From Lucinisca nassula (taxonomy: Eukaryota > Mollusca > Bivalvia > Lucinida > Lucinidae): a DNA stretch of 64,000 bases. The notes under the pieces were generated by a model. That model saw only the letters and a program-made list of their open reading frames with translations, was not told where the DNA came from and did no database searches. Each line of letters begins with the position of its first letter. Within the stretch, counting starts at the first letter, position 1. The stretch is from positions 124,001 to 188,000 of the forward strand of contig CAUZLF010000704.1 of assembly GCA_963580285.1 (NCBI GenBank), written 5' to 3'. Shown here one piece after another: positions 24,792 to 58,055 of this stretch. Both the position numbers and the translations under genes were made by a program.

Positions 24792-25335
24792 AGTAGAAGT
24801 GATGGACATGATCAGGAATCGGTACAATTAACCCCCAGCTCCCTTCAGAGACACCAAAGGGAAAGACACACAAACACGAAACAACCAGACCCTTATGGAA
24901 ACATCAATGGCGGAAAGCCAAAAGGACAGTTACTTTTCAACAAAATGGCCAATCGGCTATCCGAAACAAAATCATATAAGCAATTAAAACACTCAAAGGG
25001 AAACCATAACAAGAATAAACCGCGAATGAGCAACCGCCTTGGAACGATCAGTGAAACGAATTCAACTGGGGGCCTTAAATCGATTTTACCTGGCCACAAT
25101 CCTCGCCCTTAATCCCGTCGCGATTTAGACAAATAATTTGTTCAGTCCGCATGAAGGCCTCCTAACTCATCAGTGCAACATCTCCATGAATACAAAAATC
25201 AAACGACCACAGAGATGAAACAACGGTTAGACTCGACAGCAAGAATCCACTGAAATTCTGAAGCAAAAGAAAACGAGCAGTAAGACTCCGATGGGCCCGA
25301 CCAGAGAGAGAGCATCAACTACCAACCGACCTTAC
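24792..25335 (+). mobile_element. R-A dispersed element, copy 2 (truncated right)
   Basis: Begins AGTAGAAGTGATGGACATGATC and carries CAGAGACACCAAAGGGAAAG and ATTTAGACAAATAATTTGTT, in the same order as the 797-bp copy at 16142-16938. It lacks the last 250 bp or so of that copy. No open frame of significance. Confidence 0.7.
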
Positions 25336-33227: not shown

Positions 33228-33259
33228 AATTATGGTTTAGAGATTTCTCTGATTCACTT

Positions 33260-35060: not shown

Positions 35061-35069
35061 TCTCTCCAG

Positions 35070-35370
35070 TATGACTTCAGTCGGATGCGCGTCCGACCGG
35101 CGACCAGGAGGGCGAGGGCTCGACTCACACCGGGGTCGGCAACATTCCTTCGCGGAGACTGATCATGAAATCTTTTCTATGGTCATTCCCCCTCCTCCCC
35201 TGATTCAAGAAGGGCAGCTGTCAGCCTCCAGCGCAAGAATGTGCACCACACTGGTTAACCGCCTACGTATAAGCCTGCCCAGGAAAGTGCTGATAGGTAA
35301 ACTGACCGGCTCAAAAATAACCTAAATAATGTTAACTGGGCCGTAAAACTCCAATACAAACAAACAAAAC
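35070..35370 (+). mobile_element. tRNA-headed SINE (SINE-1)
   Basis: Head with GACCGGCGACCAGGAGGGCG and a B-box-like GGCTCGACTC, body with ATTCAAGAAGGGCAGCTGTC and CTGCCCAGGAAAGTGCTGAT, tail GGGCCGTAAAAC then CAAACAAACAAAA. A second copy lies on the minus strand at 48822-49134. It is nested in the retrotransposon leader, opposite to the element's sense. Confidence 0.8.
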
Positions 35371-36025
35371 TCTCAGGTATGAGTGATGTAACCCTGTTTA
35401 AATAATACCTCCTGTGTGGAGGACTCTGATGGACCCATAGACAGTTATCACATATCTCCTGTGTAAATAAATATAAGACTTCTAATGAAAACAAAACTAT
35501 ACAGTTTTGCTACAGGTTCTCTCCAGTATGGTCAAAATGTTAGCACCTGAAAAAAAAAGGATTGTCTTCAATATAAGAAAACTGGTTGTCCTTCAATTCT
35601 TGACATTATCTGAAACAAACATATTCTTACTCATTTTAAAGACTGCAAATGCAGCATGTACATGAATATAGCTTGTTTGCCTATAACAATGGTGTTTTTT
35701 TTTTTTTTTTTTTGTTTGTTTTACCAACAAAAAAGCCAATGCTGTCCAAATATCTCTGTAACAAAAGAACTCCAACAGAAGCCCAATTTTTTTTTTTTTT
35801 TTAGTAGAACCCACACATGTACCCTTGACATGTAAAACAATGTCAGCACACCTGTATCAATTGTCTCAAGAGGTAGGCTGAAAACATAAACAAGTTCTGA
35901 GCGGGGAAACTTAGACTCAATTCCCAAATTCCTGTACTGTCAGAAGTGTAGGCCATCTGATCTGGGTTCACACTGTTTGCCAAGAGCAAACACACAACTC
36001 CATTATAAATTCTCTAAGAATTCCG

Positions 36026-36347
36026 AGGCCATTTTCTATAAATAACCACCACCTGAGTTTCTTACAATTCTGTGCTAGTGGCATGAGCAGCAGCACTGGA
36101 GAGCTTCTGTGCTTAGTAGTGTAGAAAAAAAATCAGACAATACAATATTTCAGACATGTAAGTTCACCAGCCATTATTCTGCAACTAAGGCCATTTTCTA
36201 TAAATAACCACCACCTGAATTTCTTACAATTCTGTGCTAGTCGCGTGAGCAGCAGCACTGGGGAGCTTCTGTGCTTAGTAGTGTAGAAAAACAATCATAC
36301 AATACAATATTTCAGACATGTGGTTTCACCAGCCATTATTCTGCAAC
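36026..36347. repeat. 161-bp tandem duplication
   Basis: AGGCCATTTTCTATAAATAA starts at 36026 and again at 36187. The two copies are nearly identical through GCAACTAA. Non-coding, within the retrotransposon leader. Confidence 0.9.
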
Positions 36348-36608
36348 TAAACAAAAACATTATAGATCTACACTCGCTACAGGGATACCCGATTTGATTC
36401 CGATGGGGACTTTGGGCAAGTGGGCAAGACAAACACAGGGAATACTCCAAATGGCATGGACAAAATAATGATCTGGGGTCATAAGGATGAAATAATGAAC
36501 TATCAACACAATCTAAACATAATACACGCTGACACACACACACACAAAATGACATGAATGAGCAGAGCAATAAATAAATAAATAAATAAGCATAAATAAA
36601 CAAAATAA

Positions 36609-36705
36609 AAAAAAAATGTTCCGTCTGAGTTTCGATCCCACGCCGTCAAAAATACAATCGGCTATGGTTGCGTAGTCGGCGACTTAACCCGCTCGGCCAC
36701 GGTAG
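36609..36705 (-). ncRNA. tRNA Leu/Ser-like sequence (pseudogene or SINE head)
   Basis: On the minus strand: A-box GTGGCCGAGCGGGTTAAG, an extended variable-arm-like region, a B-box-like GGATCGAAACTC and a long T-run terminator (36609-36616). The long variable region and A-box resemble tRNA-Leu or tRNA-Ser. Acceptor pairing is only partial (CCGT/ACGG) and the T-arm has a mismatch, so function is doubtful. Confidence 0.55.
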
Positions 36706-37907
36706 ATTTAGTTATATTGTAACACTATATTACGATATATAAAGCTTTACACCTCACCGCGTCACCAGGTAAATCACGAGAGCCAGAGCATGACAAAACG
36801 ACTAACACATCATTTCAGTTATACCCGGGGAAATTACCACTCTGATCAGGGTTTCTCAAGACAACTACTCGTATTCACAGACATTTACGAGACCCATTCA
36901 AATGGTCTCTCAATCGGACAAGGAGAACTATTACCAGGGCAGAGCAGTGGGCGAATTTAAATTATCGTAAGGGACATTTTCTAATCTACATTGTTTACAC
37001 CTTACGAGCAACTACCCGGATCAGAAGCAGACGAAGCATAGCACAAACTTGTTCATTGTTATTTTCGCGAAGCGGAACGCGGCGAAAACATAATGAATCC
37101 CCGGGGATGGATAACAGTGAACAAACTTATGCGATGGACTCCATCGGATACTGACAGGTAGTATTGTTTACGTAAATTATCATCTTTGTTACTAACAATA
37201 ACTAAACATCACGTGCATTATCACAGGTTAATGTCAACAGTAAGTTTACACTTCTCAGCTCATGAATAAATCTGTGTAAAATTAGGACATAAGACCAAAT
37301 GACTTTTTATTGCTGTGGCTTTACGGTCATTTCAAGATCATTTCACTTATTCTGAGCCGATAGCCGGAGGTAGGCAAAACCTGGATTACCCGGAGAAAAA
37401 CCACATGCTCGTCAGAAAGAGAAAATATGCATATGCATATATAATCTCAAAAGATAGAAAAGTATAGTACAGCCTTACCAAAGTAAATCTTATCCTATTA
37501 TATCCAAAAACTAAAGCACTAAACACAACTAATTAAATACACATTTTGACACACACAAAATCACATGACAATGGTGATCACGAAATAATGATCACACACA
37601 AAGTTAAACAGACGGTCTCTCCAACACGCACTAATCATGTGTTCAGTCGAAAACTCCGATCCTCCGAAACGTCGAATCCACTGTCGATCGATCGATAGAA
37701 ATCAGTAATTTTCACTGGGCCCAAGTTGAAACACAAAAAGTTGCGATCGCGAATGATGTGATGTTTACACTTTATCCATGGTGGAAATCCCTGGAATACT
37801 CGCTTCTGATTGGATGAGGCACGTATGACGTCACAAGAATCCCTCACGATGCTGTTGTTTTCTTGCAGGGCTATCCCAGCGCTGATCGACGTTGACGTGT
37901 CGTGTTG

Positions 37908-37927
37908 GCCCCCGAACTGGCCACCAA
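37908..37927 (-). other. Primer binding site region
   Basis: Immediately inside the 5' LTR the minus strand reads TTGGTGGCCAGTTCGGGGG, starting with the TGG expected opposite a tRNA CCA end. I cannot assign the tRNA. The first eight bases resemble the tRNA-Leu site of the TRIM at 45690. Confidence 0.65.
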
Positions 37928-38593
37928 TGTAACCGGGAAGGTTTCTACAGGGTTCGATAGAGCCAACGCACCAGTGACAGCTTCATCAACTTTAATATGA
38001 GCAACGATGATTCATGATTCTATACCTATAAAGATATATGAAAATACATCTTTAGAACATCAAAATCACAAATGATATGTAAAGTGAATATCTTTACAAT
38101 ACAAGGAAAATGGCGAAAGTGCAATGAATCGACAATCTGACATTTACAAATAGTACACAAATATACCACACTCATTCATACAGCACACTGTTACATAACA
38201 ATGGTACACAAATGGACAATGGATCAATGACATCTTCAAAATATACAAATTCCAGCCTTGTAAAAATACTGAAATCTATGTCATTGAGAAATACACTTAT
38301 TAAACAATAAATTGCAGTGACTCACCTATAAAGATATATGAAAATACATCTTTAGAACATCAAAATCACAAATGATATGTAAAGTGAATATCTTTACAAT
38401 ACAAGGAAAATGGCGAAAGTGCAATGAAGCGGTACACTGCTTTATGGACAATGAATTTAAATGAGGGTTGATCAATAATTTCTGCTACAATAACTGGCAG
38501 AAATCATTAGACATTATCAAGGATGTAATTCGCCAAGTTTCAATGATTCTGATAAGCGTCAGACTGCAAAAGCATAATTTCGACCCTGTTACA
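37928..38593 (-). repeat. 5' LTR (666 bp)
   Basis: Same length as the 3' LTR and reads as identical, including the 104-bp internal repeat at 38024-38127 and 38324-38427. An ORF that starts within this LTR at 38468 and runs into the flank is a fusion made by the insertion and is not a native start. Confidence 0.95.
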
Positions 38594-38597
38594 CAGA
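38594..38597. other. Target site duplication CAGA (right)
   Basis: Matches CAGA at 25519-25522. A 4-bp duplication falls within the range usual for Ty3/gypsy integrases (4-6 bp). Confidence 0.85.
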
Positions 38598-38627
38598 CAG
38601 AAGATTTTTCTATCGGATCATTGAAAA

Positions 38628-39226
38628 TGTCAGAAGAAGTGGAGGATGTTTTCATAGAAACTTCGTTTGATAACAGCATTAACTTTGAAAGTGCATGGAT
38701 ATCATCTGATGGCATTGATTCTTTTTTACATCGGGAAGAATATATAAGTGTTAGGGGGGCATACATTGACGATCCTAGGGAACTGCTATATGATTATGAC
38801 ATTGATGGTATAACAATTCTATGGAAAAATATTGGTGATGGACTTTCGTTGGATTACACACATTTTGATTTGGCCTCGCAGGGGGAACATGCTCTAAGAC
38901 CGATTTATTCACTTCTAAAGAAACACATTAAATTAGAAGACTACACTGTCAGAAGTTTACAAGTGTTTAGACACAGCCTAGGGTGCCAATTAATCCATTA
39001 CGGCGGTTGGGAAACTTGGCTTGGATTTATACCAAAGGCGCAGTGTAATGTAATGTATGAAGGTCAAGACATTCGAAGACTCATTTTAAGATATGTTTCT
39101 TCTCTAAAAGATCATTTCCAGAAGGAGCTTCTGCTGCTACTGCAAACAGGAAATGCAAATGAAACGCTGGCAAAGAATAATATTTTTAAAATAAAAAACT
39201 GTTTGTACTTCCAGGTGACCGAATGA
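38628..39226 (+). CDS. Unrecognised protein, first ORF of an orphan gene
   Basis: 199 residues from the ATG at 38628, the first ATG that does not depend on LTR sequence. The frame is also open into the LTR, back to 38468. The N-terminus is acidic (SEEVEDVF). A folded-looking stretch includes GITILWKNIGDGLSLDYTHF and LIHYGGWETWLGFIPKAQC. I recognise no family, signal peptide or membrane segment. It ends at TGA 39224-39226, which overlaps the ATG of the next ORF as ATGA. This may be two overlapping ORFs, a frameshift in a single protein, or an unspliced intron: a TTTGTACTTCCAG acceptor-like site lies just upstream at about 39201-39213. The retrotransposon sits 34 bp before its start and probably separates it from its promoter or earlier exons. 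Confidence 0.6.
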
Positions 39227-40542
39227 CAATTCTCAAAGCTTTTCAGCGTGCACTTGAAAACATCACGGACGTTGTGAGCTCGTCATTTTACCCAGTAACA
39301 TTTTCCTTCAGGTTTGGAGAAAAATGCCGCAGCAGAATTGAGTTACCTATATTGGATGTAAAGGCCGTAGATGATATATGCATTCATGCCGGAATACGCA
39401 TTAGCTCAGATTTTCATGACATATTCTGGTGTCGAAGTGGAGTTAATGAAGTCATAGGTGAACGCGGGCAATTAAGTTCTGCTTATTCTTTTTTCGAATG
39501 TGTAAATTTCCAGTCAAACTTGGATCACAGATCATTGGATGTGAGTGGTTTACTCCGATCAATATCTCGTTTTCCAGACCGTGTGAGATTTATTCAAATG
39601 TACTCTGACATGCCACATCGTCGACCCCAAACAACATGTCATCCTATTTCGGGATCCGTTATATTAGTGGAAGGCATTTTATCAGGACCTAGTCAACAGA
39701 AGCTATGCAGAGAAGTAGATGAATACCTTTCAGAGTTGAAGAGCATTTTTTTTCAGGTTAGAAATGGTCATTGCCGTCTTGAGCTAGTGGTATGTCTTCC
39801 CCGCGTTTATAAAAGTATTAATGCTTTAGATGTGGTGAATACAGATAGACTTTTTGAATTGTTTCGAGATCACCCAATGATCGCACCATTCAGCAAGGTT
39901 TACGACTTTAATGTTATAGACTGCTTACGTGAAGTCGGACTTTTTCTGCACTCAAAATTGCAGGACATTTATGCTACGCGAAAGGGCACTGGAGATAGTT
40001 GGGCTGTTTGGAATGCCTATCAATGCGAGCTAGCATGTGAAAAGCTTTTATGGGGCCATCCGTTCTCTTATTCTTCTAGAATATATGCCATAAACCTTGG
40101 ACCTGGTCTTGATAATGCTACCCGCAGTCTAACTGATCAAATGGGATTTTTGTGCTTGGAAAACTGTTTCACTTGCTGTTCTGACGAAACGTCGACTCCA
40201 CCTCTAAACATTTACACAAAAAATATAAAGATACAGACACAAATTACTCAATTATTTGGCATTTCAGATCTGGTCGATGCAAGCCCAGCTGCATTTGCAG
40301 TAAAGGCAAATAAAAATCAAAAAATGAGTTCCTTTAAGAGCAATGAAAACATTCATAAGAAAGAAGATGGGTCATACTACGTAGTTTCTAATTGGCCTAA
40401 TTGGCCGAAACTAGCTAGTCTGGCCCATAAAACATGCCCACACCATATTGTGGTGTGTTCCTTGCATCCAAAAGATAACTCTTTTGTACAAAAATATTTA
40501 CTAAAACTGAATTGCAGTGAGATGCTCAGAAGACTGATCTGA
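39223..40542 (+). CDS. Unrecognised protein, second ORF of the orphan gene
   Basis: 439 residues, -1 frame relative to the first ORF. The frame is open upstream of the ATG, so it may be read as a continuation. Composition is that of a soluble globular protein up to about residue 388 (Cys- and His-containing, with DDICIHAGIRISSDFHDIFW and WAVWNAYQCELACEKLLWGH). I recognise no family or catalytic motif. The last 50 residues or so are encoded by R-B and satellite sequence in reverse orientation (from about 40392), so the original C-terminus is lost or replaced. The segment 40296-40388 recurs inverted at 41090-41182 and in part at 41473-41550. It could be a host gene remnant, a transposon-borne gene or an integrated viral gene; nothing visible decides. 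Confidence 0.6.
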   Translation: MTILKAFQRALENITDVVSSSFYPVTFSFRFGEKCRSRIELPILDVKAVDDICIHAGIRISSDFHDIFWCRSGVNEVIGERGQLSSAYSFFECVNFQSNLDHRSLDVSGLLRSISRFPDRVRFIQMYSDMPHRRPQTTCHPISGSVILVEGILSGPSQQKLCREVDEYLSELKSIFFQVRNGHCRLELVVCLPRVYKSINALDVVNTDRLFELFRDHPMIAPFSKVYDFNVIDCLREVGLFLHSKLQDIYATRKGTGDSWAVWNAYQCELACEKLLWGHPFSYSSRIYAINLGPGLDNATRSLTDQMGFLCLENCFTCCSDETSTPPLNIYTKNIKIQTQITQLFGISDLVDASPAAFAVKANKNQKMSSFKSNENIHKKEDGSYYVVSNWPNWPKLASLAHKTCPHHIVVCSLHPKDNSFVQKYLLKLNCSEMLRRLI

Positions 40543-44841: not shown

Positions 44842-45005
44842 ATATGTTCTATAAAAGGGTTATCCTTTGGAAGCATGGAATACACCACAGAAGTGAAATA
44901 TATGGAGTGTACATGTTTTCTGGGCCAGACTAGCTAGTTTCGGCCAATTGGGCCTCATCAGTGACCCTCAGGTATTTTCAAAATTCCACAATGGAATCAA
45001 TAAAG
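44842..45005 (+). mobile_element. R-B repeat unit (right part missing)
   Basis: ATATGTTCTATAAAAGGGTT through GGCCTCATCAGTGACCCTCA to ATTCCACAATGGAATC, then back to S1 satellite. Confidence 0.8.
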
Positions 45006-45486
45006 ACTGATTGGAATTTAGACCTGCTAAACTGAAGATGGATTATTGTTTTATTTGATTACCATACTCAGTTCACTTTTTTTCTTCTTCATTTGACACT
45101 TAGTGCGGAATAATTTAGCCTCAGATCAATCTTTCTTAGCATCTACTGCAATTTAGTGTTAATAAAGCCTGAGCGGAATCTTAGACCTACTAAACTCAAG
45201 GTGATGTAGTTTTTACTTGCATACCAGGCCCAGTTCACCCTTGTTCTTCTTCATTCGACCCTCCATCTAACCTGATTTATCCTCAGATCAGCTTTTATGA
45301 GCATCTCACTGCATTTCAGTGTTAATAAAGCCTGAACTGAATCGTAACCCTTCTAAACTCAAGGTGATTTTTGTTTTATTTGCTTACCAGGCCCAGTTCA
45401 CCCTTGTTTTTCTCCATTTGACCATAACTTCATCCTGGTTTAGCTTTCTGAGCATATCACTGCAATGCAGTGTTACTAAATTGAAG
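45006..45486 (+). repeat. Satellite S1 monomers
   Basis: Three forward monomers; GTTAATAAAGCCTGA recurs at about 45158 and 45321, giving a 163-bp period. Non-coding. Confidence 0.85.
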
Positions 45487-45510
45487 TAGAGGCAATGATC
45501 AGGAATCGAA

Positions 45511-45515
45511 ACAAT
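45511..45515. other. TRIM target site duplication ACAAT (left)
   Basis: ACAAT precedes the left LTR and recurs at 45981-45985 directly after the right LTR. The uninterrupted R-A family sequence at this point reads ...ACAATTAAC, which confirms the site. Confidence 0.85.
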
Positions 45516-45688
45516 TGTAACGGTTATGGACAAATACCACTTCTACAGCCTTGCTGTAGGAGCCGGCTCTTTTAGCGACGCGGGTAAAGAGGTTGGCTTA
45601 TTCGCGAAGTTAAGCGACGGAGATTGCGGTTAGTACCTGGATGGGTGAACGCGTTGCTTGACTTCGTGGACGACCCGGTAACGCTACA
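45516..45688 (+). repeat. TRIM left LTR with 5S-like promoter boxes
   Basis: The A-box-like GAAGTTAAGC (45606-45615) and the C-box-like GGTTAGTACCTGGATGGG (45628-45645) start 22 bp apart, the same distance as GAAGCTAAGC and GGTTAGTACTTGGATGGG in animal 5S rRNA. The intermediate element between them is diverged. The 5' third of 5S is not collinear here, although an ATACCAC occurs at 45534. Confidence 0.85.
45606..45650 (+). promoter_or_regulatory. 5S-type internal control region (left LTR)
   Basis: A-box and C-box of a type 1 pol III promoter, as listed for the LTR. In 5S genes this region binds TFIIIA. Whether it still works cannot be told from sequence; C-box positions 45646-45650 (TGAAC) differ from AGACC. 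Confidence 0.6.
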
Positions 45689-45689
45689 T

Positions 45690-45707
45690 TGGTGGCAGCG
45701 GTGGGAT
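45690..45707 (+). other. TRIM primer binding site, tRNA-Leu type
   Basis: TGGTGGCAGCGGTGGGAT, one base after the left LTR. From memory it is the exact complement of the last 18 nt (with CCA) of animal tRNA-Leu of the AAG/UAG type. Confidence 0.85.
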
Positions 45708-45793
45708 GGAAACAGTGCCGCTGGTTTGTTACATATACTCCGTCCTCGGGTTTAGCCTTGTGAGGCATGTGTGACTTCGGGACGAAGTCAAGA

Positions 45794-45807
45794 GATGTGG
45801 GGGGAAA
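45794..45807 (+). other. TRIM polypurine tract
   Basis: GATGTGGGGGGAAA lies directly against the TGTAAC start of the right LTR. Confidence 0.85.
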
Positions 45808-45980
45808 TGTAACGGTTATGGATAAATACCACTTCTACAGCCTTGCTGTAGGAGCCGGCTCTTTTAGCGATGCGGGTAAAGTGGTTGGCTTATTCGCGAA
45901 GTTAAGCAACGGAAATTGCGGTTAGTACCTGGATGGGTTACCGCGTTGCTTGACTTCGTGTACGACCCGGTACACGCTAA
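45808..45980 (+). repeat. TRIM right LTR with 5S-like promoter boxes
   Basis: Same 173-bp length as the left LTR. A-box-like GAAGTTAAGC at 45898-45907 and C-box-like segment at 45920-45937, again 22 bp apart. Its version of the bases after GGATGGG (TTACCGCG) is closer to 5S (AGACCGCC) than that of the left LTR. One base of the 3' terminus appears deleted. Confidence 0.85.
45898..45942 (+). promoter_or_regulatory. 5S-type internal control region (right LTR)
   Basis: Second copy of the A-box/C-box pair. A transcript started from this LTR would run into flanking DNA, while one from the left LTR would cross the interior. Confidence 0.55.
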
Positions 45981-46690
45981 ACAATACCTACAGCTCCCAT
46001 CAGAGACACCAAAGGGAAAGAAACACAAACATGAAGCAACAGACCCCCAAAGGAAACACCAACAGCGGAAAACCAAGAGGACAGTTACTTTCCCAAAAAA
46101 TGGCAAAAAGGCTATCCAAAATAAAATCATTTAAGCGACACAAACACCCAAAGAAAAACCATAACAAAAATAACCGCGACAGTAGAACCGCATCGGAACG
46201 GTCAGCGGAAACGAATTCCACTGGGGTGGGAGGCTTAAATCGATTTAACGTGGCCACAATCCTCGCCCTCACTTCCGTCGCGATTAAGCCAAACAACTCG
46301 TCCAGCCCGCACGAAGGCCCCCTAACCCAACAGTGCAACATCTCCGTGAACACAAAAATCAAACAACCACAGAGACGAAACAACGGCGAGGACTCGACAG
46401 CAAGAAACAACAGAAATGCCGGAGCAAAAGTAAACCAATAGTTAGACTCCAATGGGCCCGACCAGAGAAGAGCATCAGGTACCAACCAACACAAGCCCTT
46501 ACGTTGGAACAGTCATAGAATCTGAGGCCTGACGGACCGGCGTGCAATTAAAGAGGGAAGCAAAGTTGTCAACCGTGATGGGGTTAACCACCATGCATGC
46601 AGTCTGTCGTATAAAATTTATGTTGTACCCAATCTTTTTATATCGCAGAATGATTTTACGAAATTTGGTGCTGAAGTCATTACACTTTTA

Positions 46691-48444
46691 TTTGCTTACC
46701 AGATTCAGTTCCCCTTGTTCTTCTTATTTGACCCTTAGTTCAGCCTGATAAAGCCTCAGATCAGCCTTTCTGAGCATCTCAATACAATTCGGTGTTAATA
46801 AAGCCTAAAATGAATATTATCCCTGCAAAACCCAAGATGAATTATTGTTTTATTTGCTTACCAGGCCCAGTTTACCCTTGTTCCTTTTCATTTGACACTT
46901 AGTTCAGACTAATTTAGGCTCAGATCAGCCTTTCTTAGCATCTACTGCAATTTAGTGTTAATAAAGCCTGAGCGTAATCTTAGACCTACTAAACTCAAGG
47001 TGATGTATTGTTTTATTTGCTTACCAGGCCCAGTTCACCCTTGTTTGTCTTCATTTGACCCTTAGTCCAACCTGGTTTATGCTCAGGTCAGCCTTTCTGA
47101 GCATCTCAATGCAATTCAGTGTGAATAAATATGTTCTATGAAAGGGTTTTATAGAACATATTTATTCACACTGAAGCAAGGAATACACCACAGAACTGGT
47201 TAACCCTTGTTCTTGTTCATTGACCCTTAGTCCTTAGCCTGGTTTAGCCCCAGGTCTGCCTTTCTGAGCATCTCACTGCAATTAAGTGTCAATTAATCCT
47301 GAACTGAATCTTAACCTGCTAAACTCAAGGTCAATGTGATTTAATGTTTTATTTGCTTACAAGGCCCAGTTCACCCTTGTTTTTCTCCAGTTGACCTTAA
47401 GTTTAGCCTCGCTTAGTTCAACATGGTTCAGCCTTAGCTTAGCCTTTCTGAGCACCTCACTGCAATTCAGTGTTAATAAAGCCTGAACTGAATCTTAGCC
47501 CTGCTAAACTCAATGTGGAATATTGTTTTATTTGCTGACCAGGCCCAGTTCACCTTCGTTTTTCTTCATTCGACACTTCGTTCAGCCTGGTTTAGCCTCA
47601 GGTCAGCCTTTGTTTGAGCACCTTACTGCAATTCAGTGTTAATAAAGCCTAAACTAAATCTGAGAAGTGCTGAACTCAATGTGAAATATTGTTTAATTTG
47701 CTTACCAGGCCCAGTTCACCCTTGTTCTTCTTCATTTGACCCTCAGTTCAGCCTGGTTCAGCCTTAGATCAGCCTTTCTGAGCATCTAACTGCAATTCAG
47801 TCCCAGTTCACCGTTGTTCTTCTTCATTTGACACTTCGTTCAGCCTTGTTTAGCTTAAGATCAGCCTTTGTTTGAGCACCTCACTGCAATTCAGTGTTAA
47901 AAAAGCCTGAACTGAATCTTAGCCCTGCTAAACTCAATGTGGAATATTGTTTTATTTGCTGACCAGGCCCAGTTCACCTTTGTTCTTCTTCATTCGACAC
48001 TTCGTTCAGCCTGGTTTAGCCTCAGGTCAGCCTTTGTTTGAGCACCTTACTGCAATTCAGTGTTAAAAAAGCCTGAACTAAATCTCAGAAGTGCTGAACT
48101 CAATGTGAAATATTGTTTAATCTGCTTACCAGGCCCAGTTCACCCTTGTTTTTCTTCTTTTGACCCTTAGTTCAGCCTGGTTCAGCCTTAGATCAGCCTT
48201 AGATCAGCCTTTCTGAGCATCTTACTGCAATTCAGTGTTAATAAAGCCTGAACCGAGTCTTAGCCCTGCTAAACTGAATGTGAAATATTGTTTTATTTGC
48301 TTGCCAGGCTCAGTTCATCCTTGTTTTTCTTATTTTACCCTTAGTTTAGCCTGGATTAGCCTCAGACCAGCCTTTGGTTTAGCATACTGCAATGCACTGT
48401 TAAATAAGCCTGAAGTGCATGATAATTTTGCTGAACGCAAGCTC
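46691..48444 (+). repeat. Satellite S1 array, dense
   Basis: About ten forward monomers of about 163 bp. Each has TTGTTTTATTTGCTTACCAG (splice-acceptor-like), TTCATTTGACCCTTAGTTCA, TTCAGCCTGGTTTAGCCTCA, GAGCATCTCACTGCAATTCA and GTTAATAAAGCCTGAACTGA (polyA-signal-like). Local higher-order duplication is seen at 47500-48110. Non-coding. Confidence 0.9.
47115..47175. repeat. Perfect 25-bp palindrome with 11-nt loop
   Basis: Left arm 47115-47139 (TTCAGTGTGAATAAATATGT...) and right arm 47151-47175 are exact reverse complements. The loop is GAAAGGGTTTT. The arms span the S1/R-B junction sequence, so this is an R-B left end that was inverted on itself. Confidence 0.95.
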
Positions 48445-48821
48445 AATTATTGCTTTTACTGTTTTCCCGTCACTGTTCTCCATCGTTTCGTCTCATTTCA
48501 CCTTCGATTATCATTGGTTCAACCTGGTTCAGGGTTAAGCTTAGGGTTTTCGTTTGGAACTTGTGTATACCAACATGGCTGAAGCTTCATTAATTTTGTG
48601 AGAGGCATTAGCAGTGTTTCCTTAGCAACCTCCTTAAGTTTCGTGTGTATATCATATTCAATGGATTAGCTGTTTATTATTTCGAACTTTTATTCACCAT
48701 TTATTTCATTGTAAAGTTGGTGGCGTGAAGGTTCATGTTCCTGGAGAGGATACGTGCTTTAACTTGAACACGAAGGAAGACGTTCTCGAGAAAGGTTAGT
48801 TAAATACGAATTTTTACAATA

Positions 48822-49134
48822 TGTGTGTGTTTGTTTTGGGATTTAACGACCCAGTCAACAGTACTTTAGGTCATTTTGAGCCGGTCAGTTTGCCTATCAA
48901 CACTTTCCTGGGCAGGCTTATACGTAATCTATTAACCAGCATAGTGCACATTCTTTCGCTAGAAACTGCCAACTGCCCTTCTTGAATCAATGAAAGGGGA
49001 GAGAATGACACTAGAAAAGATTTCATGATCAATCTCAATGAAGGAATGTCGCCGACCCCGGGAGGTATCGAATCTGCGTCCTCCTGATCGCCAGTCAGAC
49101 CCACAACAGACTGAGGTGCCGAGGCCGGCAACTT
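48822..49134 (-). mobile_element. tRNA-headed SINE, reverse copy (SINE-1 family)
   Basis: Reverse complement of the SINE at 35070-35370: tail at 48822-48860, body with GGGCAGGCTTATACGTAATC, head ending near GGCCGGCAAC. Absent from the equivalent place in D2. Confidence 0.8.
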
Positions 49135-49170
49135 TTGTAATAATAATAATAACAATAATAATATTGACTT

Positions 49171-49395
49171 ACGGGCCTCCGTGGCCTAGTGGTTAAGAGC
49201 GCTGACACTTGATCATTAGGTCTCTCACCGCTGTGGTTCGAGGCTCGCTCGGGTCACATGTGAGACGCCAAGTTCTGCAACGGAAGGTCAGGTGGTTTTT
49301 CTCCGGGTACTCCGGTTTTCGCCCACCTCTGATTAACGATCGGCTCGATATGAGTGAAATAATCTTGAAAGGGCCGTAAAACCAAAACAAAAAAT
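49171..49395 (+). mobile_element. tRNA-headed SINE (SINE-2)
   Basis: Head GGGCCTCCGTGGCCTAGTGG with A-box and a B-box GGTTCGAGGCT 60 nt on, body with TTTCTCCGGGTACTCCGGTT, tail GGGCCGTAAAAC then A-rich and (AAT)n. The same tail motif as SINE-1 suggests mobilisation by one LINE family. Confidence 0.85.
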
Positions 49396-50149
49396 AATAA
49401 TAATAATAAAGATAATGACTTGTTGTTGTTGTTGTAGTCATTTGATTTAGGTATGCTGTTTTCATAAATTAAAAAAAGGATCATTTAGGCACGCTATGCG
49501 TTCATTTTTTATTAATTGGGAGGATAAAACTAAAATGAACCAATGCTGAACGAATGTCAAAATTGGGCACCTAACCGTAAACTCTAACCCTATCCAATAT
49601 GATTCAGTCCAGGTTCCATGCCTTGAGATGTTCAGAAACACTGAACCGAGGCTGGACCTTTCACAGCCATGTGTGAATGAGGCAGAAGGAGGTTAAACTG
49701 TTGCTTGAAAGTAAAAGAACCTGTGTCAACCGTGTGTTTAGCTTATTTAAGAATCCTGACTGTGAGAGACAAATAAAATGAATTATTGTTAGGTTATAAT
49801 TCAACCCTATTTAGCATCCGTTCAGACATAAGACCAACCACATTGTTGTAAATTGTTAAATTATTGATGACCTGCGGTTTACATAAGGGCGAACTCAGGC
49901 TGGACGGAAGTTGAACCTTTTTTCGGTTGAGTAAGGCTAAATTCTAAGTAATCATTTTTGTTTAAAGTTTTATTCCTCCTGATATCAGCTTTTTAAACAT
50001 ATCACATCAAATCGGTGCAAATATAGCCAGAACTTAATCATCATTTTGCTCAACTCAAGGTGAACAAATACTCTAGCTATTCATCAGACTTAGTTCATCA
50101 TAGTTCAGCCTCAGTTCACCTCTGTTCAGCCTGGTTAATCATCAGATGA

Positions 50150-50425
50150 GATCAAGGCCGTAAAAGGAAGACCCCCACTTAACCCACTTTATACAGAGAA
50201 AAGTGGGGTTTACGTGGCTGTTCAATAGTTTTCCTCCTTTTGCCCATATACATAGATTGTTGGGTCTTTTTAGAACGACACAGTGCGGCGTTTCTAACGA
50301 GCGCTCACAATCTACAGTTGGACAAGAAATAAGAAAAATATCAAACCTTTTTGTTTGAAAAAGGTTAGTCCTAGAGATAGGATGGACGCCATTTTGGCAC
50401 ACGGGTGTGTTATCGTAATGAATTT
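50150..50425. mobile_element. MITE M1, degenerate copy
   Basis: Shares AAGTGGGGTTTACGTGGCTG-type sequence, TTTCTAACGAGCGCTCACAA and a right end GGGTGTGTTATCGTAATGA with the complete copy at 23232-23511. The left terminus is degenerate. Confidence 0.65.
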
Positions 50426-50722
50426 TGAACAGCTCATAAGAAACCAGTTGATCTTAAGACTACTGAACTCATGCCGAAGTGCTGTATTTATTTCTTGAAA
50501 GTCTTAGTTCATCCTCGTTCTGCCTAAGTTCATCTTAGTTCGGCCTGGTTTTTGACTCACGCCATCCGTTTTGAATATATCACAGCGACAGAGAGCAAGG
50601 TGAACAAAGGTTCCGACTACTTACGGCTTCTGTTCACCATCGTCCTGCCTCCATTCACCTCAGTTCAGCCTGGTTCATCTTCAGATCAGGCTTTTCACAA
50701 ATCTGACAATGCAATGAATATT

Positions 50723-50842
50723 ACCAAGCAGGCACATGACGTAATATGACGTTTATGCAACGTCATATTTACGTCGATACAACGTTATGACGTTTCACAA
50801 ACGTTGATTATGCGTTTCCTTAGGGACGTGTGCTTGCTGGGT
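50723..50842. mobile_element. MITE M2 with ACGT-rich core, copy 1
   Basis: Ends ACCAAGCAGGCACATGACGT and ACGTGTGCTTGCTGGGT are imperfect inverted repeats. The core is packed with ATGACGT/ACGTCAT and AACGTT. It interrupts an S2 monomer between AATATT and ACTCCTACCGAACGCA-type sequence. Confidence 0.7.
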
Positions 50843-51190
50843 ACTCCTACCGAACGCAACCTGAACTGTTACAGTAATTACTAACAAGTCTCAGTTCATC
50901 CTCGTTCTAACCGATTTCATACTTGGTTTTGCCTAGCGCCGTCTCAGATCAGCCTTTTGAATTTTACACAGAATTTGAATGTACATTAAGCCTAAACAGA
51001 ACGTTATTCTTGCTTTACGCAAGATTGAAAATAGTTTGAATACTTACCAGTCTAAGTCTACCCTCGTTATGCCTCAGTTTATCCTTGGTTCAGCCTGGTT
51101 CAGCCTCAGATCATACTTTTCTTATCATCTCAAAGCGATTCAATATTTGCTGAGCGAATACTGAATCTAAATATCGCTGCATTCAAGCTA

Positions 51191-53136
51191 AAAAAAGTCT
51201 TGTTTTCACTCATAAGTGTTTGTTAACACTTTTTCTGTCTAAGATCACCCTTGGTTCAGCGTTAGTTCAGCAGCAGATAAGGTTTTAAGAACATATCATG
51301 GGAATACAATGTTAAAAAAGCTGAAATGAATCAAAATCTTGCTGAACTTACGATGAGCAATGGTAAAAATAACATATCAGTTTCGTCTCATCCCATTTCT
51401 GCCTCACTCCGCCCTTGATGAAGTCTGGCTTTGGCTAAGATCATATTACACAGCGATATATAGTTTTGACAAATACGTTCTGAAGAAAGGGGTGTCTTTG
51501 AAAAGCAAGTCAACAGATGATCAGCCTTCTCGAATACATCATAACAATGCAATGTTAGAAAAGGCTAAACAGAATCTAAATCTTGCTGAACTGAAGCTGA
51601 ACTGTACTAGTAATCACTAACAAGTCTCCGGTCATCCGCGTTCTGCCTCATTTCGTCCATGGTTCTTCCTAGCTCAGCCTCAGATCAGCCGTTTTTATAA
51701 CTTTTCACAGCAATAAAATGTTAATAAAGCCTTAGCTGAATCAAACTCTTACTCAACGCAACGTGAATATGGTTTGAATACTTACCAGTCTCAGTTCATC
51801 CTCTTTATGCCTAATTTCACCCTTAGTTCAGCGTTGGTTAAGCAGCCGATCAGCCTTTTTTAACATATAATCTGAATGCAACGTTAGGAAAGACTGAACT
51901 GTATCTAAATCTTGCTGAACTCAAAATGAGCAGTGGTTAAAATAAAATGTCAGTCTTGGCTCATCCTAGTTGGCTAAGATAAGCTTTTTTAATATATTAC
52001 ACAGCGATATCTGAATTTGAAAAATTTGTTCTAAAGAAAGGGATATCTTTAGAAAGCAAGGAATTCTTTATAGAGCTGAAATGTATATTGTTTGTAAGTT
52101 TTTTTCTGCTCCAGTTCAAACTTGCGTCAGCCTCATTCAACAGAAGATCAGCCTTCTCGAATACATCACAACAATGCAATGTTAGTAAAGGCTAAACTGA
52201 ATCTAAATCTTGATGAACTGACGCTGAACTGTAATAGTAATTACTAACAAGTCTCCGTTTAGTCTCGTTCTGTCTCATTTTGTCCTTGATTCTGCCTACA
52301 CCTGCCGTATTTTTTTTTAACTTTTCACAGCACTTATATGTTCATAAAACCGAAACTAAATCTCACTCTAACTCAACGCAAGGTGAAATATGGTTTGAAT
52401 ACCTTTCAGAGTTCATCCTCTAAATGCCTATGTTCATACTTGATTCAGCCTGATTCAGCCTCAGATCATACTTTTAAGCATTTCAGAGCGATTCAATATT
52501 TTCTGAGCCCGTACTGAATCTTAATGTCGCTGCACTCAAGCATAAAACAAACGTTCTATTAACTTACAACACCCTTTCTGTCTCAGTTCACCCTTGGTTT
52601 AACAGCAGATCAACCATTAGAATACAATGTTAGAAAAGCCTGAATTGAATCAAAATCTTGTTGAACTCAAGATGAGCAATCGGTAGAATAAAATATCAGT
52701 CGTGGTTCATCCTGGTTCTGTCTCAGTCCACCTCTTGTGCAGTCTTGTTTAGCCTGAGATCCTTTTCGTTTTTAATATTACACAGCGATATATAGTTTTG
52801 GTAAATATATTCTAAAGAAAGGGATACCTACCTTTGAAAAACAAGTAATACACTATTGAACTAATATGTATACAGTAGATAAGTTTATTCTGCCTCAGTT
52901 CAACCTTGCATCGGCCTAGTTTAACAGCAGATCAACCCTTTTTGAATATATCATAACAAGCAATGTTAGAAAAGGCTGAACTGAATCTAAATCATGCTGA
53001 ACGAAAGATACGCAGTGGTTCTAATTGGTAACCAAACTTAGTTTACCCTTGTTCTGTATCAGATTTACACTTGGTTCATTCTGGTTGAGTCTCAGGATAG
53101 CCTTTACGAAAATCGCTCAGCGATGCAATTTAAAAA
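51191..53136 (+). repeat. Diverged satellite S2 monomers
   Basis: Loosely periodic segments related to S1 (TTCAGCCTGGTTCAGCCTCAGATCA, CACAGCGATnnAnTnTT, CTGAATCTAAATCTTGCTGA) with many substitutions. Local duplications occur at 51380-51590 and 52000-52250. No gene is supported. Confidence 0.75.
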
Positions 53137-53590
53137 AATAGAAGTCAAGGCAATGAGCAGGAACCGATAGAATTAAACGACAGCTCCCATCCGATATACC
53201 AAAGGTAAAGAAACACAAACACGAAACAACATACCCTAATGGAAACTTCAATAGCGGAAAGCCAAAAGAACATTTACTTTCCCACAAAATGGCAAATTGA
53301 CTATCCAAAGCGATACAAACACTCAAAGACAAACCATAACAAAAATAAACCGCGACAGAAGAACCGCCCTGGAACGGTCAGTGAAACGAATTACACTGGG
53401 GGACTTAACTCGATTTTACGTGGCCACAATCTTCGCCATTACTTCCGTCGCGATTAAGACACTTTGTTCAATCCGCATGAAGGCCTCCTAACTCATCACT
53501 GCAACATCGCCGTGAATACACAAAAAATCAAACCACAACAGAGATAAAAACAACAGTGAGAACTCGACAGCAAGAAACCACTGAAATGCT
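53137..53590 (+). mobile_element. R-A dispersed element, partial copy
   Basis: AGCAGGAACCGATAGAATTA through GGAAAGCCAAAAGAACATTT to CAGAGATAAAAACAACAGTG. Same order as other copies, lacking the right 200-250 bp. Confidence 0.75.
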
Positions 53591-54240
53591 GGATCAAATG
53601 ATATCCAACAGCTTTCTAACCCTCACCCAAAAACCTTCACTGCATGTTACTCTTTCTTAATTGAAGCTTAACAATTGTTTTAGTTAATTACGTGTCTAGT
53701 TGCACTCTTGATCTGGCTTTTGGGATATCTTTGTTACCAAAGTCTGAATCTCAAACTGCTGAACGCAGGTTGAACAATGGTTCTAATTTCTTACTGTCAG
53801 TTCACCCTCGTCGCGTCTCTAATAATCAGTCGGTTCAGACTGCTTCAACCTCAGATTTGCCCTTTGGAACATCTCAAAGAAATGCATATCAATAAAGCCA
53901 GAACCGCTGAAATGCTGGATCAAATGAAATCCAACAGGTTTCTAACCCTCACCCAAAAACCTTCACTGCATGTTACTCTTTCTTAATTGAAGCTTAACAA
54001 TTGTTTTAGTTAATTACGTGTCTAGTTGCTTTCTTGATCTGGCTTTTGGGATATCTTTGTTACCAAAGTCTGAATCTCAAACTGCTGAACGCAGGTTGAA
54101 CAATGGTTCTAATTTCTTACTGTCAGTTCACCCTCGTCGCGTCTCTAATAATCAGTTGGTTCAGACTGCTTCAACCTCAGGTTTGCCCTTTGGAACATCT
54201 CAAAGAAATGCATATCAATAAAGTCTGAACCGAATCTTAA
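53590..54240 (+). repeat. 326-bp tandem duplication
   Basis: TCTAACCCTCACCCAAAAAC begins at 53615 and 53941 and TTACGTGTCTAGTTGC recurs 326 bp apart, with very few differences. It is an S2-derived higher-order duplication and appears recent. Two 67-codon look-alike frames within are repeat-borne. Confidence 0.9.
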
Positions 54241-54506
54241 TCTTGTCACTCGAACTAAAGAATGGTTCATATAAATGACTCGTCTTAGTTTGCAATTTCT
54301 ACTTTGGGCAATCCCGGTTCATACCTGAGATTATTTAAAGAACATCAGACCGCAATGCACTGATGGTAAAAAAATCAACAGAAATTAATGATACGTCTGA
54401 GTTCTCCCTCGTTTTGTACCAGTCCCCACTTGGTTCTGCCTCGATCATCCTCAAATCGGTATTTTTCAATATCTGGGATAATCATGCATAGTATTATTTA
54501 ACAATT
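54241..54506 (+). repeat. Diverged satellite S2
   Basis: Continues S2-like motifs (AGTCTGAACCGAATCTTAAT, GAACATCAGACCGCAATGCA) and a TACCAGTCCCCACTTGGTTC segment shared with 57360-57390. Confidence 0.6.
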
Positions 54507-54573
54507 AAGGCGTAACTATACAAAATTTAGTGACACAGAGGCCTTTCTGATATTTAATCTTCATCAGTGTGTC
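54507..54573 (+). mobile_element. R-C short repeat, copy 2
   Basis: TTAAGGCGTAACTATACAAA through CAGAGGCCTTTCTGATATTT to CATCAGTGT, nearly the same as 1886-1955. Copies 52 kb apart in unrelated contexts support a mobile or dispersed origin. Confidence 0.65.
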
Positions 54574-55050
54574 TCAACCCTAAAGTTCTGAAACCGAAAC
54601 GGATGATGGACAAGGCCCGGCAAACACAGCACATCCCGCTCTGAGCACACACCGACCGACGTAGCCTATGAGACAGGTCAACTGGAGGCATCAGGTAGGA
54701 GACGTCCACCCGCGGACTTGCAGGCGTCCCCCACCGAGCCAACATCAGCAAACATGACCCACACTCCACGGAAGTCCCGGGCATCAGGAAGGAGATGTCC
54801 AAAGTAGCGAGACTTGAAAATTTAAAATATAACAAAAAGTGTTAACCAAATCCGCTAAGATACATGTCTCACCTGACAAGTCAGTCTTAGTTTTAGAAAC
54901 AAATAGAATTTTATACTGCAAAAATTTAAGGATTTAATATAGTTATTTAAATCAGTACTTGAGCTTTACAATATCAGTTCATCCTCGTTCTGCCTCATTT
55001 CACCTTTGGTTCATCGTCGGATCAGCTATTTTCAAAATATCACAACAAAG
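54574..55050. other. GC-richer unassigned insert, then S2
   Basis: 54574-54835 is GC-richer than its surroundings and matches nothing else here. It holds a loose duplication (GGCATCAGGTAGGAGACGTC and GGCATCAGGAAGGAGATGTC). No convincing frame: the longest is 93 codons and contains no motif. From about 54960 S2 resumes. Confidence 0.45.
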
Positions 55051-55054
55051 CAAT

Positions 55055-55590
55055 ACAAATGTTCTATAAAATGTTATCCTTTGGAAGCAAGGAATACACC
55101 ACAAAACTGGAAAATATGAAGTGTACATGTTTTTCTGGGCAAGACTAGCTAGTTCCGGCAAATTAGGCCTCGTCAGGGACTCTCAAGATATCTTCAAAAT
55201 TCCACAATGGAATCAATGACCCTAAAGGAAAAGAAAATACTAACTTCACTATGATGTAGGGCAGGGAGACTTTTTACGGCCGCCTCACATTTCCACACAT
55301 CAGCTGTAGTGACGTTAAATATGTTCTATAAAAAGGTTATCCTTTGGAAGCGAGGAATACACCACAAAACTGGAAATATGGAGTGAACATGTTTTCTGGG
55401 CCAGACTAGCTAGTTTCGGCCAATTAGGCCTCATCAGTGACCCTCAAGATATTTTCAATATTCCACAATGGAATTAATTATCCCAAAGGACAAGAAAATA
55501 AAAACTACACTATGATATACGGCAGGGAGACTTTTTACGGCTGCCACACATTCCCACACATCAGCTGTAGTGACGTTAAATATGACCAAA
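55055..55590 (+). mobile_element. R-B repeat, two tandem full-length units
   Basis: Units start at about 55058 and 55318 (ATGTTCTATAAAA) and end in CATCAGCTGTAGTGACGTTA at about 55302-55321 and 55559-55578. They give the consensus used elsewhere, about 260 bp. Tandem arrangement means R-B can behave as a satellite as well as a dispersed repeat. Confidence 0.85.
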
Positions 55591-55929
55591 GTAGAAGTAA
55601 AACAAAGATCAAGACTGAAGTGAATCTAAATCTTACTGATTCAGGCAGAACAACGAAATTGGTTAAGTATCCAGTCCAAGTTCAGCGTCGATCTGCTCTA
55701 ATTTACATTTGGTTAAGGATGAATCTGTCTCAGATCAGCCTTTCAAAGTGCAATTTACAGCAAAACAAAGCCTGAACTGAAACTTAGCCCTGCAAATCTT
55801 AAGGTGAAGTATTGTTTTGTTTGCTTACCATACTCAGTTCAGCCTTGTTCTTCTTCATTAGACCCTTAGTTCAGCCTGGATTGGCCTAAGATCAGCTTTT
55901 ATTAGAATCTCAATGCAATTAGGTGTAAA
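55591..55929 (+). repeat. R-A end scrap, S2 and S1 monomers
   Basis: AAAGTAGAAGTAAAACAAAG (55590) is an R-A terminus only about 30 bp long. S2-like sequence to about 55770 and one S1 monomer follow. Confidence 0.65.
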
Positions 55930-56425
55930 TAAAGTAGAGGTAAAACAAAGATCAGGAATCGATGCAATTAACTTACTTCACCCATCAAAGACACCAAAGG
56001 GAAAGAAACACCAACATGAAGCGACCAGACTATAATGGAAACCTAAACAAAGGAAGGCCATAAGGACAGTTTCTTTCCCACAAAATGGCCATATGGCCAT
56101 CCAAAATAAAAAGACACAACTGATACACACAGTAAGTAACAAACAACAACATAAATAAACCGCCACAGAAGAACCGCCTTGGAACGGTCAGTGGAAAGAA
56201 TTCCACATAAACCGATTCCACGTGGCCACAATCCTCGCCCTTACTTCCGTCGCGATTTAGACAAATAATTTGTTTAGTCCGCATGAAGGCCCTCCTAACT
56301 CATCAGTGCAACAACTCCGTGAACACAACTAATCAAACAACCACAGAGATGAAACAACGGCGAGGACTCGAAATCACGAAACCACTGAAATGCTGGAGCA
56401 AAAGAAAACCAACAGTTAGACTCCG
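55930..56425 (+). mobile_element. R-A dispersed element, partial copy
   Basis: AGGTAAAACAAAGATCAGGA through CACAAAATGGCCATATGGCC and ATTTAGACAAATAATTTGTT to CCAACAGTTAGACTCC. Close to the interior of the 797-bp copy at 16142-16938. Confidence 0.75.
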
Positions 56426-57035
56426 AAAGTCTGAACTGTACCTAAGCCCTGCTAAACTCAAGGTGAATTATTGTTGTATTTGCTTACCAGGCCAGTTCAC
56501 CCATGCTCCTCTTCATTTGACCCTTAGTTCAGCCTGGTTTAGCCTAAGATCAGCCTTTCTGAGCAACTCACTGCAATTTAATGTCAATAAATATGTTCTA
56601 GAAAGGGTTATACTTTGGAAACAAACAATACAACACACAACGGGAAAAAATGGAATGTAAGTGTTTCCTGGACCAAACTCGCTAGTTTCGGCCAATTAGG
56701 CCTCATCAGTGAACCTCAAATGCTTTCAAAATTCTACAATGGAATTCAATGATCCAAACAAGGAAAATATAAACTAACTATGATGTAGGACAGGGAGACT
56801 TGTTCAGCTGAAGCCTAAACAGAATCTTAGACCTGCTAAACTCAAGAGGAATTATTGTTTTATTTGATTACCAAGCCCAGTTCACCCTTGTTCGTCTTCA
56901 TTTGACCCTTAAATAAGCCTGGTTGTGCCTCAGATCAGCCTTTCGGAGCATCTCACTGCAATTCAGTGCTAATAAAGCTTGAACTGTATCTTAGCCCCGC
57001 TAAACTCAAGATGATTTATTGTTTTATTTGCCTAC
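56426..57035 (+). repeat. Satellite S1 with one R-B unit
   Basis: S1 monomers flank an R-B unit at about 56588-56795 (ATATGTTCTAGAAAGGGTTA to GTAGGACAGGGAGACTTGTT). Non-coding. Confidence 0.8.
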
Positions 57036-57410
57036 CTGGCCCAGATACGTCTCAGTTCTCCCTCGTTTCGTACCATCCCACCTTTGTTCTGTCTCGATCA
57101 TCCTAACCCTAACCCTAAAGCCTAAACAGAATCTTAGAACTGCTAAACTCAAGATGATTTATTGTTTTATTTGCCTACCAGGAGGCCCAGATACGTCTCA
57201 GTTTTCCCTCGTTTCGTACCATCCCACCTTTGTTCTGTCTCGATCATCCTAACCCTAACCCAAAAGCCTAAACAGAATCTTAGACCTGCTAAACTCAAGA
57301 TGATTTATTGTTTTATTTGCCTACCAGGAGGCCCAGATACGTCTCAGTTTTCCCTCGTTTGGTACCAGTCCCCCCTTGGTTCTGCTTAGATCATCCTTAA
57401 ATCGATATTT
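57036..57410 (+). repeat. ~143-bp S1-derived repeat fused to CCCTAA units
   Basis: Three tandem copies, each pairing an S1 left half (CTAAACTCAAGATGATTTAT...) with GATACGTCTCAGTTTTCCCT and, in the first two, CCTAACCCTAACCC. Telomeric units have been built into the satellite monomer at 57103-57119 and 57247-57261. Confidence 0.8.
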
Positions 57411-58055
57411 TTTTCAATATCAGGGATAATCATACTTAGTATTATTTAACAATATCAGTTCATCCTTGTTCTGCCTCATTTCACCTTTGGTTCATCGTCG
57501 GATCAGCTATTTTCAACATATCTTAACAATGCATTACAATGACGGAAGTGAATCGAAATCTTACTGAACTCAAGCTGAACAATGGAATTGGTTAAGTATC
57601 CAGTCCAAGTTCAGCGTCGATCTGCTCTAATTTACACTTGGGATGAAGCTTCTCAGATCAGCTTTTCTGAGCATCTCAGTGCAATTTACAGTAAACTGAA
57701 ACTTAGCCCTGCAAATGAAACTTAGCTGAACTGAAACTTAGCCTTGCAAATCTCAAGGTGACTTATTGTTTTATTTGCTTACCCTACTCAGTTTACCATT
57801 GTTCTTATCCTTTGACCCTTGTTCTTCTTCATTTGACCCTTAGTTCAGCCTGGATTAGCCTCAGATCAGCCTTTATGAGCATCTAAATGCAATTCGGTGT
57901 AATTTAAGTCTGAGTTGTACCTAAGCCCTCCTCAAGGTAAATTATTGTTTTTATTTGCTTACCAGGCCAGTTCACCTTGTTCCTCTTCAGTTCACACTTA
58001 GTTCAGCCTGGTTTAGCCTAAAATCAGCCTTTATAAGCACCTCATTGCAATTTAG
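57411..58055 (+). repeat. Satellite S2 and S1 monomers
   Basis: Contains a copy of the 54960-55020 S2 segment (GTTCATCGTCGGATCAGCTA) and of the 55660-55740 segment (CAGTCCAAGTTCAGCGTCGA), then S1. Non-coding. Confidence 0.7.

Follow-up and report, generated by a model that had tools for sequence, protein, structure and literature searches.

Reciprocal hybrids between Gypsy elements and a gene-less LTR element carrying a 5S rRNA-derived promoter block in a probable bivalve genome

The DNA at 45516-45981 of the window, by which we mean the whole 64-kb stretch that was analysed, raises the question of whether an animal retrotransposon without genes of its own has taken its promoter from a 5S rRNA gene, and of which other element might then move it. 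The locus is a real gene-less LTR element, a TRIM (Table 1). Comparison of the window with itself gives two direct repeats, spaced 292 bp apart and 95% identical, and the element has the features by which TRIMs are recognised: two LTRs, a length below 1000 bp, no coding region, a primer binding site (PBS) and a polypurine tract (PPT). An earlier note on this DNA had assigned 173 bp to both LTRs and given their ends as TGTAACG/CGCTACA; this holds for the 5' LTR, while the 3' LTR is 174 bp long (45808-45981) and ends in CGCTAAA. The rest of the anatomy that it listed stands, namely an 18-nt PBS at 45690-45707, a purine-rich PPT, a 119-bp interior without an ORF, and promoter boxes in both LTRs with starts 22 bp apart, which is also their spacing in the host 5S gene. 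Box A reads GAAGTTAAGC (at 45606 and 45898) and box C reads GGTTAGTACCTGGATGGG (at 45628 and 45920), and neither occurs elsewhere in the 64 kb on either strand. No open reading frame of at least 110 aa is contained within the element; a stop-to-stop frame of 171 aa extends out of the 3' LTR into the repeat beside it.

Table 1. The element, its parts and one unoccupied insertion site, in window positions.
Feature	Position	Strand	Remarks
Left target site duplication, CAAT, 4 bp	45512..45515	.	4-bp rule in other copies and empty-site relatives
5' LTR, 173 bp, TGTAACGG...CGCTACA	45516..45688	+	1 base less than the family-usual 174 bp
Putative R region	45559..45573	+	projected 5S +1 at 45559 to TTTT at 45570-45573, if transcribed as proposed
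5S-derived block, 5' LTR	45605..45652	+	host 5S nt 47-94 ungapped, 40/48
Box A, 5' LTR	45606-45615	+	inside 5S-derived block
Box C, 5' LTR	45628-45645	+	inside 5S-derived block
Interior, 119 bp, without coding frame of its own	45689..45807	+	
PBS, 18 nt	45690..45707	+	complement of host tRNA-Leu (AAG, UAG) 3' end with CCA
PPT adjoining 3' LTR	45792..45807	+	read from sequence
3' LTR, 174 bp, last C mutated (CGCTAAA)	45808..45981	+	
TTTT of 3' LTR, presumed pol III terminator	45862..45865	+	
5S-derived block, 3' LTR	45897..45944	+	40/48 identical to host 5S
Box A, 3' LTR	45898-45907	+	
Box C, 3' LTR	45920-45937	+	
Right target site duplication, CAAT	45982..45985	.	
Unoccupied relative of insertion site (empty site; outside element)	24808..24930	+	84%, aligned across joined flanks

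The element is inserted in a dispersed repeat of which the window has other, unoccupied copies, and with the element taken out its flanks align with these through the point of joining (53120-53272, 55898-56070 and, on the minus strand, 16935-16802, besides the one in Table 1), so that the insertion is demonstrated without leaving the window. Within the 64-kb window the element matches only itself. The assembly that contains the window, 2.93 Gb in 696 contigs, was scanned with the element as query; at least 57 matched rows were obtained, and as the best 40 of 1985 candidates were scored, this count of copies is a minimum. From the matches listed we took 30 solitary copies, using a script anchored on TGTAACG and CGCTACA, both of which are present in all 30. 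The typical copy is 468 bp long, with 174-bp LTRs and a 120-bp interior. There are thus many genomic copies with two LTRs and target duplications, which disposes of the concern that the window copy might have no counterpart.

The length of the target duplication is where the earlier note went astray. It had read a 5-bp duplication, ACAAT, from the window copy, in which 4 and 5 bp are by themselves indistinguishable. Exactly 4 bp are duplicated in 24 of the 30 solitary copies and 5 bp or more in none, the duplication being unrecognisable in the remaining six, and the duplication in the window is therefore CAAT. The additional A matches because the last C of the LTR has mutated at 45980, turning CGCTACA into CGCTAAA. 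Mean pairwise identity among the 30 copies is 97.4%, and the two LTRs are identical in 10 of the 28 copies in which they could be compared (L023 and L044 were skipped), from which we conclude that the family has moved recently. The LTRs of the window copy differ by nine mismatches and one gap; it is an old copy in a young family. Some copies form tandem arrays that share LTRs, (LTR-interior)n-LTR, with a spacing of about 294 bp. The outer 4-mers match in four of the seven array loci inspected (L029 ATAC, L030 GAAT, L031 ATGT and L033 CTTG) and are mismatched in three (L032, and L034 and L035, which are off by one base). At L095 a solo LTR was read that is flanked by a duplication of CCTA.

To what extent the LTRs are derived from 5S rRNA was judged against the host's own genes, which we located with Rfam (47 rows). 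Each LTR of the window copy aligns without a gap to nucleotides 47-94 of host 5S rRNA, with 40 of 48 positions identical, and a young copy (L010) does so with 43 of 48. The alignment scores of 64 (window) and 76 (L010) compare with a maximum of 33 in 2000 dinucleotide shuffles, excluding chance. Local alignment is confined to these 48 nucleotides, the 47 nucleotides upstream in the same register sharing only 15-16. Within the block, identity to host 5S is 10/10 in box A, 17/18 in box C and 6-8/12 in the 12-nt spacer. The Rfam 5S model, RF00001, gives no match to the element even at an E value of 10, which we ascribe to the presence of only 48 nucleotides of a 119-nt gene, and the alignment to the host gene replaced it as our test of origin. 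The earlier note would have given up its claim had covariance scoring found the similarity no better than chance; read literally that is the Rfam outcome, but it is overridden by the host alignment, and with none of the 2000 shuffles reaching the observed score we accept its central claim that a TRIM in an animal genome has acquired a 5S-derived promoter block in both LTRs. We take this block to be the internal control region of a pol III type 1 promoter. Among other species, human 5S gave a score that none of 2000 shuffles reached in one run, but that one of 500 shuffled versions of the 3' LTR did reach in another, and yeast 5S gave no similarity above shuffles. Matches to box C fall from 17 of 18 for host and human to 16 for fly, 14 for wheat and 6 for yeast; box A is non-discriminating, wheat also matching at 10/10. 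In the predicted fold of the LTR (z -3.1) the box A strand pairs with a downstream arm in a strong hairpin, presumably unlike the known structure of 5S rRNA, and one difference between the two LTRs preserves this pairing, which is too little for a claim. The 5S genes themselves lie in arrays of differing step: genes of equal score recur at about 2.1 or about 9 kb on C1 (221517541-221709551, L048-L059), and other arrays on C13 (about 2.1 kb) and C16 (about 5 kb) are spaced differently from that on C1.

The identity of the host was considered from its mitochondrial genome. Contig C696, of 17,101 bp, uses the invertebrate code; every gene identified lies on the same strand, and their order is nad4L-cox3-nad2-cox2-nad6-cob-nad4-rrnL-rrnS-nad1-nad5-nad3-atp6-cox1. 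Names for the segment from nad5 to cox1 come from reading the frames, and a single Pfam model recognises both nad2 and nad4. Its nad4L is apart from nad4 and its cox2 is unusually long, and we take the gene order and the long cox2 to fit a bivalve rather than a Lineus-type nemertean. On the strength of this gene order, the host is most likely a bivalve. Plant contamination, another way in which the earlier note might have been misled, is contradicted both by this invertebrate-code genome and by the animal-type box C.

At 18 of 18 positions the PBS is complementary to host tRNA-Leu, at its 3' end including CCA. A genomic 22-mer for that 3' end has 35 exact sites in the assembly and its reversed control none, and all ten of the 35 loci that were fetched hold tRNA-Leu genes, three with AAG and seven with UAG at the site. 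The LTRs contain a small-RNA-gene promoter (host 5S nt 47-94), the trait of the TRIMp3 group, and a start site can be projected from it: the +1 of host 5S falls on LTR position 44. TTTT is the usual pol III stop, and in the window copy it occupies LTR positions 55-58; of 62 LTRs, 61 have a TTTT within the same 14-nt stretch. With position 44 as start and 58 as stop, the RNA would be about 306 nt long and have a terminal repeat of about 15 nt. Exactly two TTTT are present in 27 of 31 elements; shuffled elements have a mean of 3.6, and since 31% of them have two or fewer, scarcity of TTTT is weak evidence when taken alone. Its conservation is likewise explained by shared descent, so that its position is what counts. 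Neither TATAAA nor AATAAA occurs in the window copy. A palindrome in the putative R region was considered as a dimer signal and dropped, as such palindromes are by our estimate common by chance.

Evidence on the mobiliser comes from a junction on contig C137. Here a TRIM LTR, with no mismatches to the 5' LTRs of four TRIM copies (L009, L011, L012 and L015), has no TRIM interior behind it; instead the LTR abuts, at the boundary of LTR and PBS, a spacer G and a stretch resembling a PBS, behind which lies a Gypsy frame that encodes knuckle, protease, RT and RNase H domains. The LTR on the right is Gypsy's own (99% over its last 252 bp), ATTG stands at both outer ends, and a deletion has removed the integrase, the PPT and the start of the 3' LTR. 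With the first 900 bp of the C137 interior as query (at least 46 rows, the best 40 of 59 candidates scored), five more copies were found that are 98-99% identical over the whole query, along with distant relatives. These five have a different LTR in the same place, ending in ACGTTACA. The PBS of the copy on C15, a copy whose second LTR was not found in the pieces fetched, is identical to that of the TRIM (18/18); the other four (L101-L104) and C137 itself (L092) have in common an altered PBS, TGGTGGCCGCGATTAGTGGGA, with one base different in L104, which is no longer a plain match to tRNA-Leu. The Gypsy copy on C12 has its full length, with LTRs of 1064 bp (TGTAACGAAAA...ACGTTACA), the duplication CTTA and an integrase frame, and its LTR has TATAAA and AATAAA motifs and no 5S block. 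Beyond termini and PBS, the pieces compared gave no sequence common to TRIM and Gypsy, whose PPTs also differ.

We then have the reciprocal arrangement. A pattern that places the TRIM PBS behind a Gypsy-type LTR end occurs at nine sites, all of which were fetched; at eight of these the match is a TRIM copy, older or rearranged, that ends in CGTTACA. On C16, a Gypsy-type LTR leads into a TRIM interior (96%) and a TRIM 3' LTR (95%). This Gypsy-type LTR has 69-81% local identity to the tail of the C12 LTR, and so belongs to a related family and not to that of C12. The right flank of the hybrid is GATG, and GATG also precedes TGTGACAAATA within about 12 bp of the left end predicted by alignment with the C12 LTR; the left end was placed from that alignment and the matching GATG, not from a second LTR. 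A junction of the C137 type, CGCTACA followed by GTGGTGGC, occurs at three sites (C137, C2:180079714 and C5:162749089), of which C137 was read. The 5S-to-PBS pattern had no matches in the viral and prokaryotic contig collections, nor had the LTR pattern in the viral collection.

Both hybrids that were read are thus joined at the boundary between LTR and PBS, the site at which plus-strand strong-stop DNA re-anneals as reverse transcription proceeds. If two elements share a PBS, either one's strong-stop DNA can pair with the minus-strand DNA of its counterpart. That the 4-mers at the outer ends agree favours integration of each hybrid as a single molecule, and the reciprocal hybrids point to Gypsy elements as the mobiliser of the TRIM. 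All in all we consider it probable that this is a TRIM whose LTR took the internal control region of an animal 5S gene, which it uses as a pol III promoter, and which Gypsy elements mobilise. In the proposed cycle, the block in the 5' LTR would be bound by TFIIIA, TFIIIC and TFIIIB, and pol III would start some 47 nt upstream of box A, at about LTR position 44, pass the nearby TTTT, read the remaining LTR and the interior and stop at the TTTT of the 3' LTR, leaving the short terminally repeated RNA described above. That RNA would be co-packaged in particles of a tRNA-Leu-primed Gypsy element and reverse transcribed from tRNA-Leu, and the Gypsy integrase, recognising similar termini (TGTAACG...ACGYTACA), would integrate the product with 4-bp duplications. 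Occasional plus-strand transfer at the shared PBS would put the LTR of one partner before the interior of the other. That the TRIM and its Gypsy mobiliser exchange LTRs in both directions in this way is a narrower claim, towards which we lean slightly. Several findings count against the cycle: one TTTT lies only about 11 nt past the projected start and must be read through, the PBS is altered in C137 and in four of the five other Gypsy copies, C137 has a deletion, the C16 hybrid has an LTR of a related family and a left end placed by alignment and a matching 4-mer, TRIM and Gypsy have nothing but termini and PBS in common in the pieces compared, the window's own Gypsy has a different PBS, and only two hybrids were read.

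The same small number, together with the deletion in C137, leaves some room for the view that the hybrids were formed once their parts had already integrated, through nested insertion or ectopic recombination, and are uninformative as to the mobiliser. We think this unlikely, as the outer 4-mers match (ATTG and GATG), as expected for integration of a single molecule, and both junctions fall at the very place of plus-strand transfer; chance would produce the match about 1 time in 256 for C137, the argument being weaker for C16, where the left end was searched for. Somewhat less probable still is that the 5S-like block persists by descent only and is no longer a promoter, transcription being by pol II from cryptic signals. 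The boxes are only slightly better conserved than other segments (mean column majority 0.993-1.000 vs 0.972-0.994 in 30 copies), and even this slight conservation is mostly explained by the young age of the family, but the spacer between the boxes is more variable than the boxes, the window copy lacks the TATAAA and AATAAA that the Gypsy LTR has, and TTTT is kept in eight of nine older LTRs that were picked by the box C pattern and reach far enough upstream (two of these loci, L121 and L122, look like duplicates of each other, and the LTRs in L118 and L119 were not picked). That we are dealing with a 5S-derived SINE that resembles an LTR element is so improbable as to be negligible: elements of the SINE3 class do carry the same promoter (PMC10886601), but the two LTRs, PBS, PPT and 4-bp duplications refute this on structure, as do the solo LTR with its duplication CCTA and the LTR-sharing tandem arrays.

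A further alternative concerns lineage rather than mechanism. The earlier note was aware of no animal counterpart, yet one has been described: Ajax (Kojima 2024), a TRIMp3 element of two nemerteans with a 5S promoter segment in its LTRs, a tRNA-Leu PBS, 5-bp duplications and lengths of 421 and 434 bp (PMC10886601). The present element works like Ajax, as far as two descriptions can be compared: both are TRIMs of similar length in animal hosts, their LTRs hold no more of 5S than its promoter (box A, IE, box C), and a leucine tRNA is the primer. It may therefore be Ajax itself, inherited or else moved between phyla, and not an independent capture of 5S sequence; this architecture is shared, at 468 bp against 421 and 434 bp, and we regard the idea as possible, though doubtful. 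What speaks against it is that Ajax is reported with 5-bp duplications, against 4 bp here, and from two nemerteans only (PMC10886601), while the mitochondrial gene order fits a bivalve. Tandem arrays and Gypsy hybrids are not mentioned for Ajax in the parts of PMC10886601 consulted. Pol III transcription is, according to PMC10886601, unproven for Ajax and Helenus.

Cassandra, of plants, resembles the element in its 5S promoter within the LTRs, its short R region (18 bp, PMC10886601, against 15 nt predicted here) and its tandem arrays (title of PMC7215508). It differs in being primed by methionine tRNA (PMC10853983), and the element here has an animal-like box C and only 48 nucleotides of 5S. 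The very old shared ancestor that the earlier note had entertained is accordingly unlikely, the primers being different and box C being closer to animal 5S. Helenus, which comprises tRNA-promoter TRIMs of animals including pteriomorph bivalves, shares with our element a pol III-type LTR promoter, 4-bp duplications in animals and an inferred Gypsy mobiliser; its promoter is tRNA- and not 5S-derived, and its primers in bivalves are tRNA-Lys, His, Ile, Pro, Glu or Ser (PMC10886601). Another TRIM of bivalves, biv-TRIM, has no unambiguous canonical PBS, and a search of the main text of its description found no mention of polymerase III (PMC6934838). Neither a 5S-TRIM of a mollusc nor a TRIM-Gypsy hybrid of such an element was found among the matches listed in the open-licence PMC literature.

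The kind of element is thus already known from Ajax and Cassandra, and the reciprocal TRIM-Gypsy hybrids are the new part. According to PMC10886601 there is no indication of which autonomous family mobilises Cassandra, and the partners of such TRIMs need not share LTRs with them. The hybrids are sequence evidence for the partner of a 5S-TRIM, with a junction that matches a known step of reverse transcription. If the exchange is real, one particle would reverse transcribe both TRIM RNA made by pol III and Gypsy RNA made by pol II, and a coding retrotransposon could acquire a pol III promoter in front of it, as in C137. With a probable bivalve added to the nemerteans as hosts of 5S-promoter TRIMs, and with a duplication length unlike that of Ajax, captures of 5S sequence look either repeated or more widespread. 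The host 5S start, once projected onto the LTR, yields a testable prediction of the R region as well.

The window contains a Gypsy element of its own (25523-38593, minus strand), which was considered as the partner of the TRIM and rejected, since its PBS and LTRs differ from those of the TRIM. It has a PNMA-type gag, RT, RNase H and integrase, the PBS TGGTGGCCAGTTCGGGG and an apparent CAGA duplication, and its LTRs are 100% identical (repeat of 669 bp), indicating a very recent insertion. Adjoining its LTR, at 38465-40542, are overlapping frames of 253 and 450 aa without a Pfam match, and a 958-aa frame at 8135-11011 also has none. A diverged satellite of about 164 bp is present in many scattered blocks over 44999-60600. 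Interstitial TTAGGG-type arrays are found at 2015-2094, 3078-3155 and 4795-4898, where they adjoin a 76-bp tandem repeat and two 1.3-kb direct repeats.
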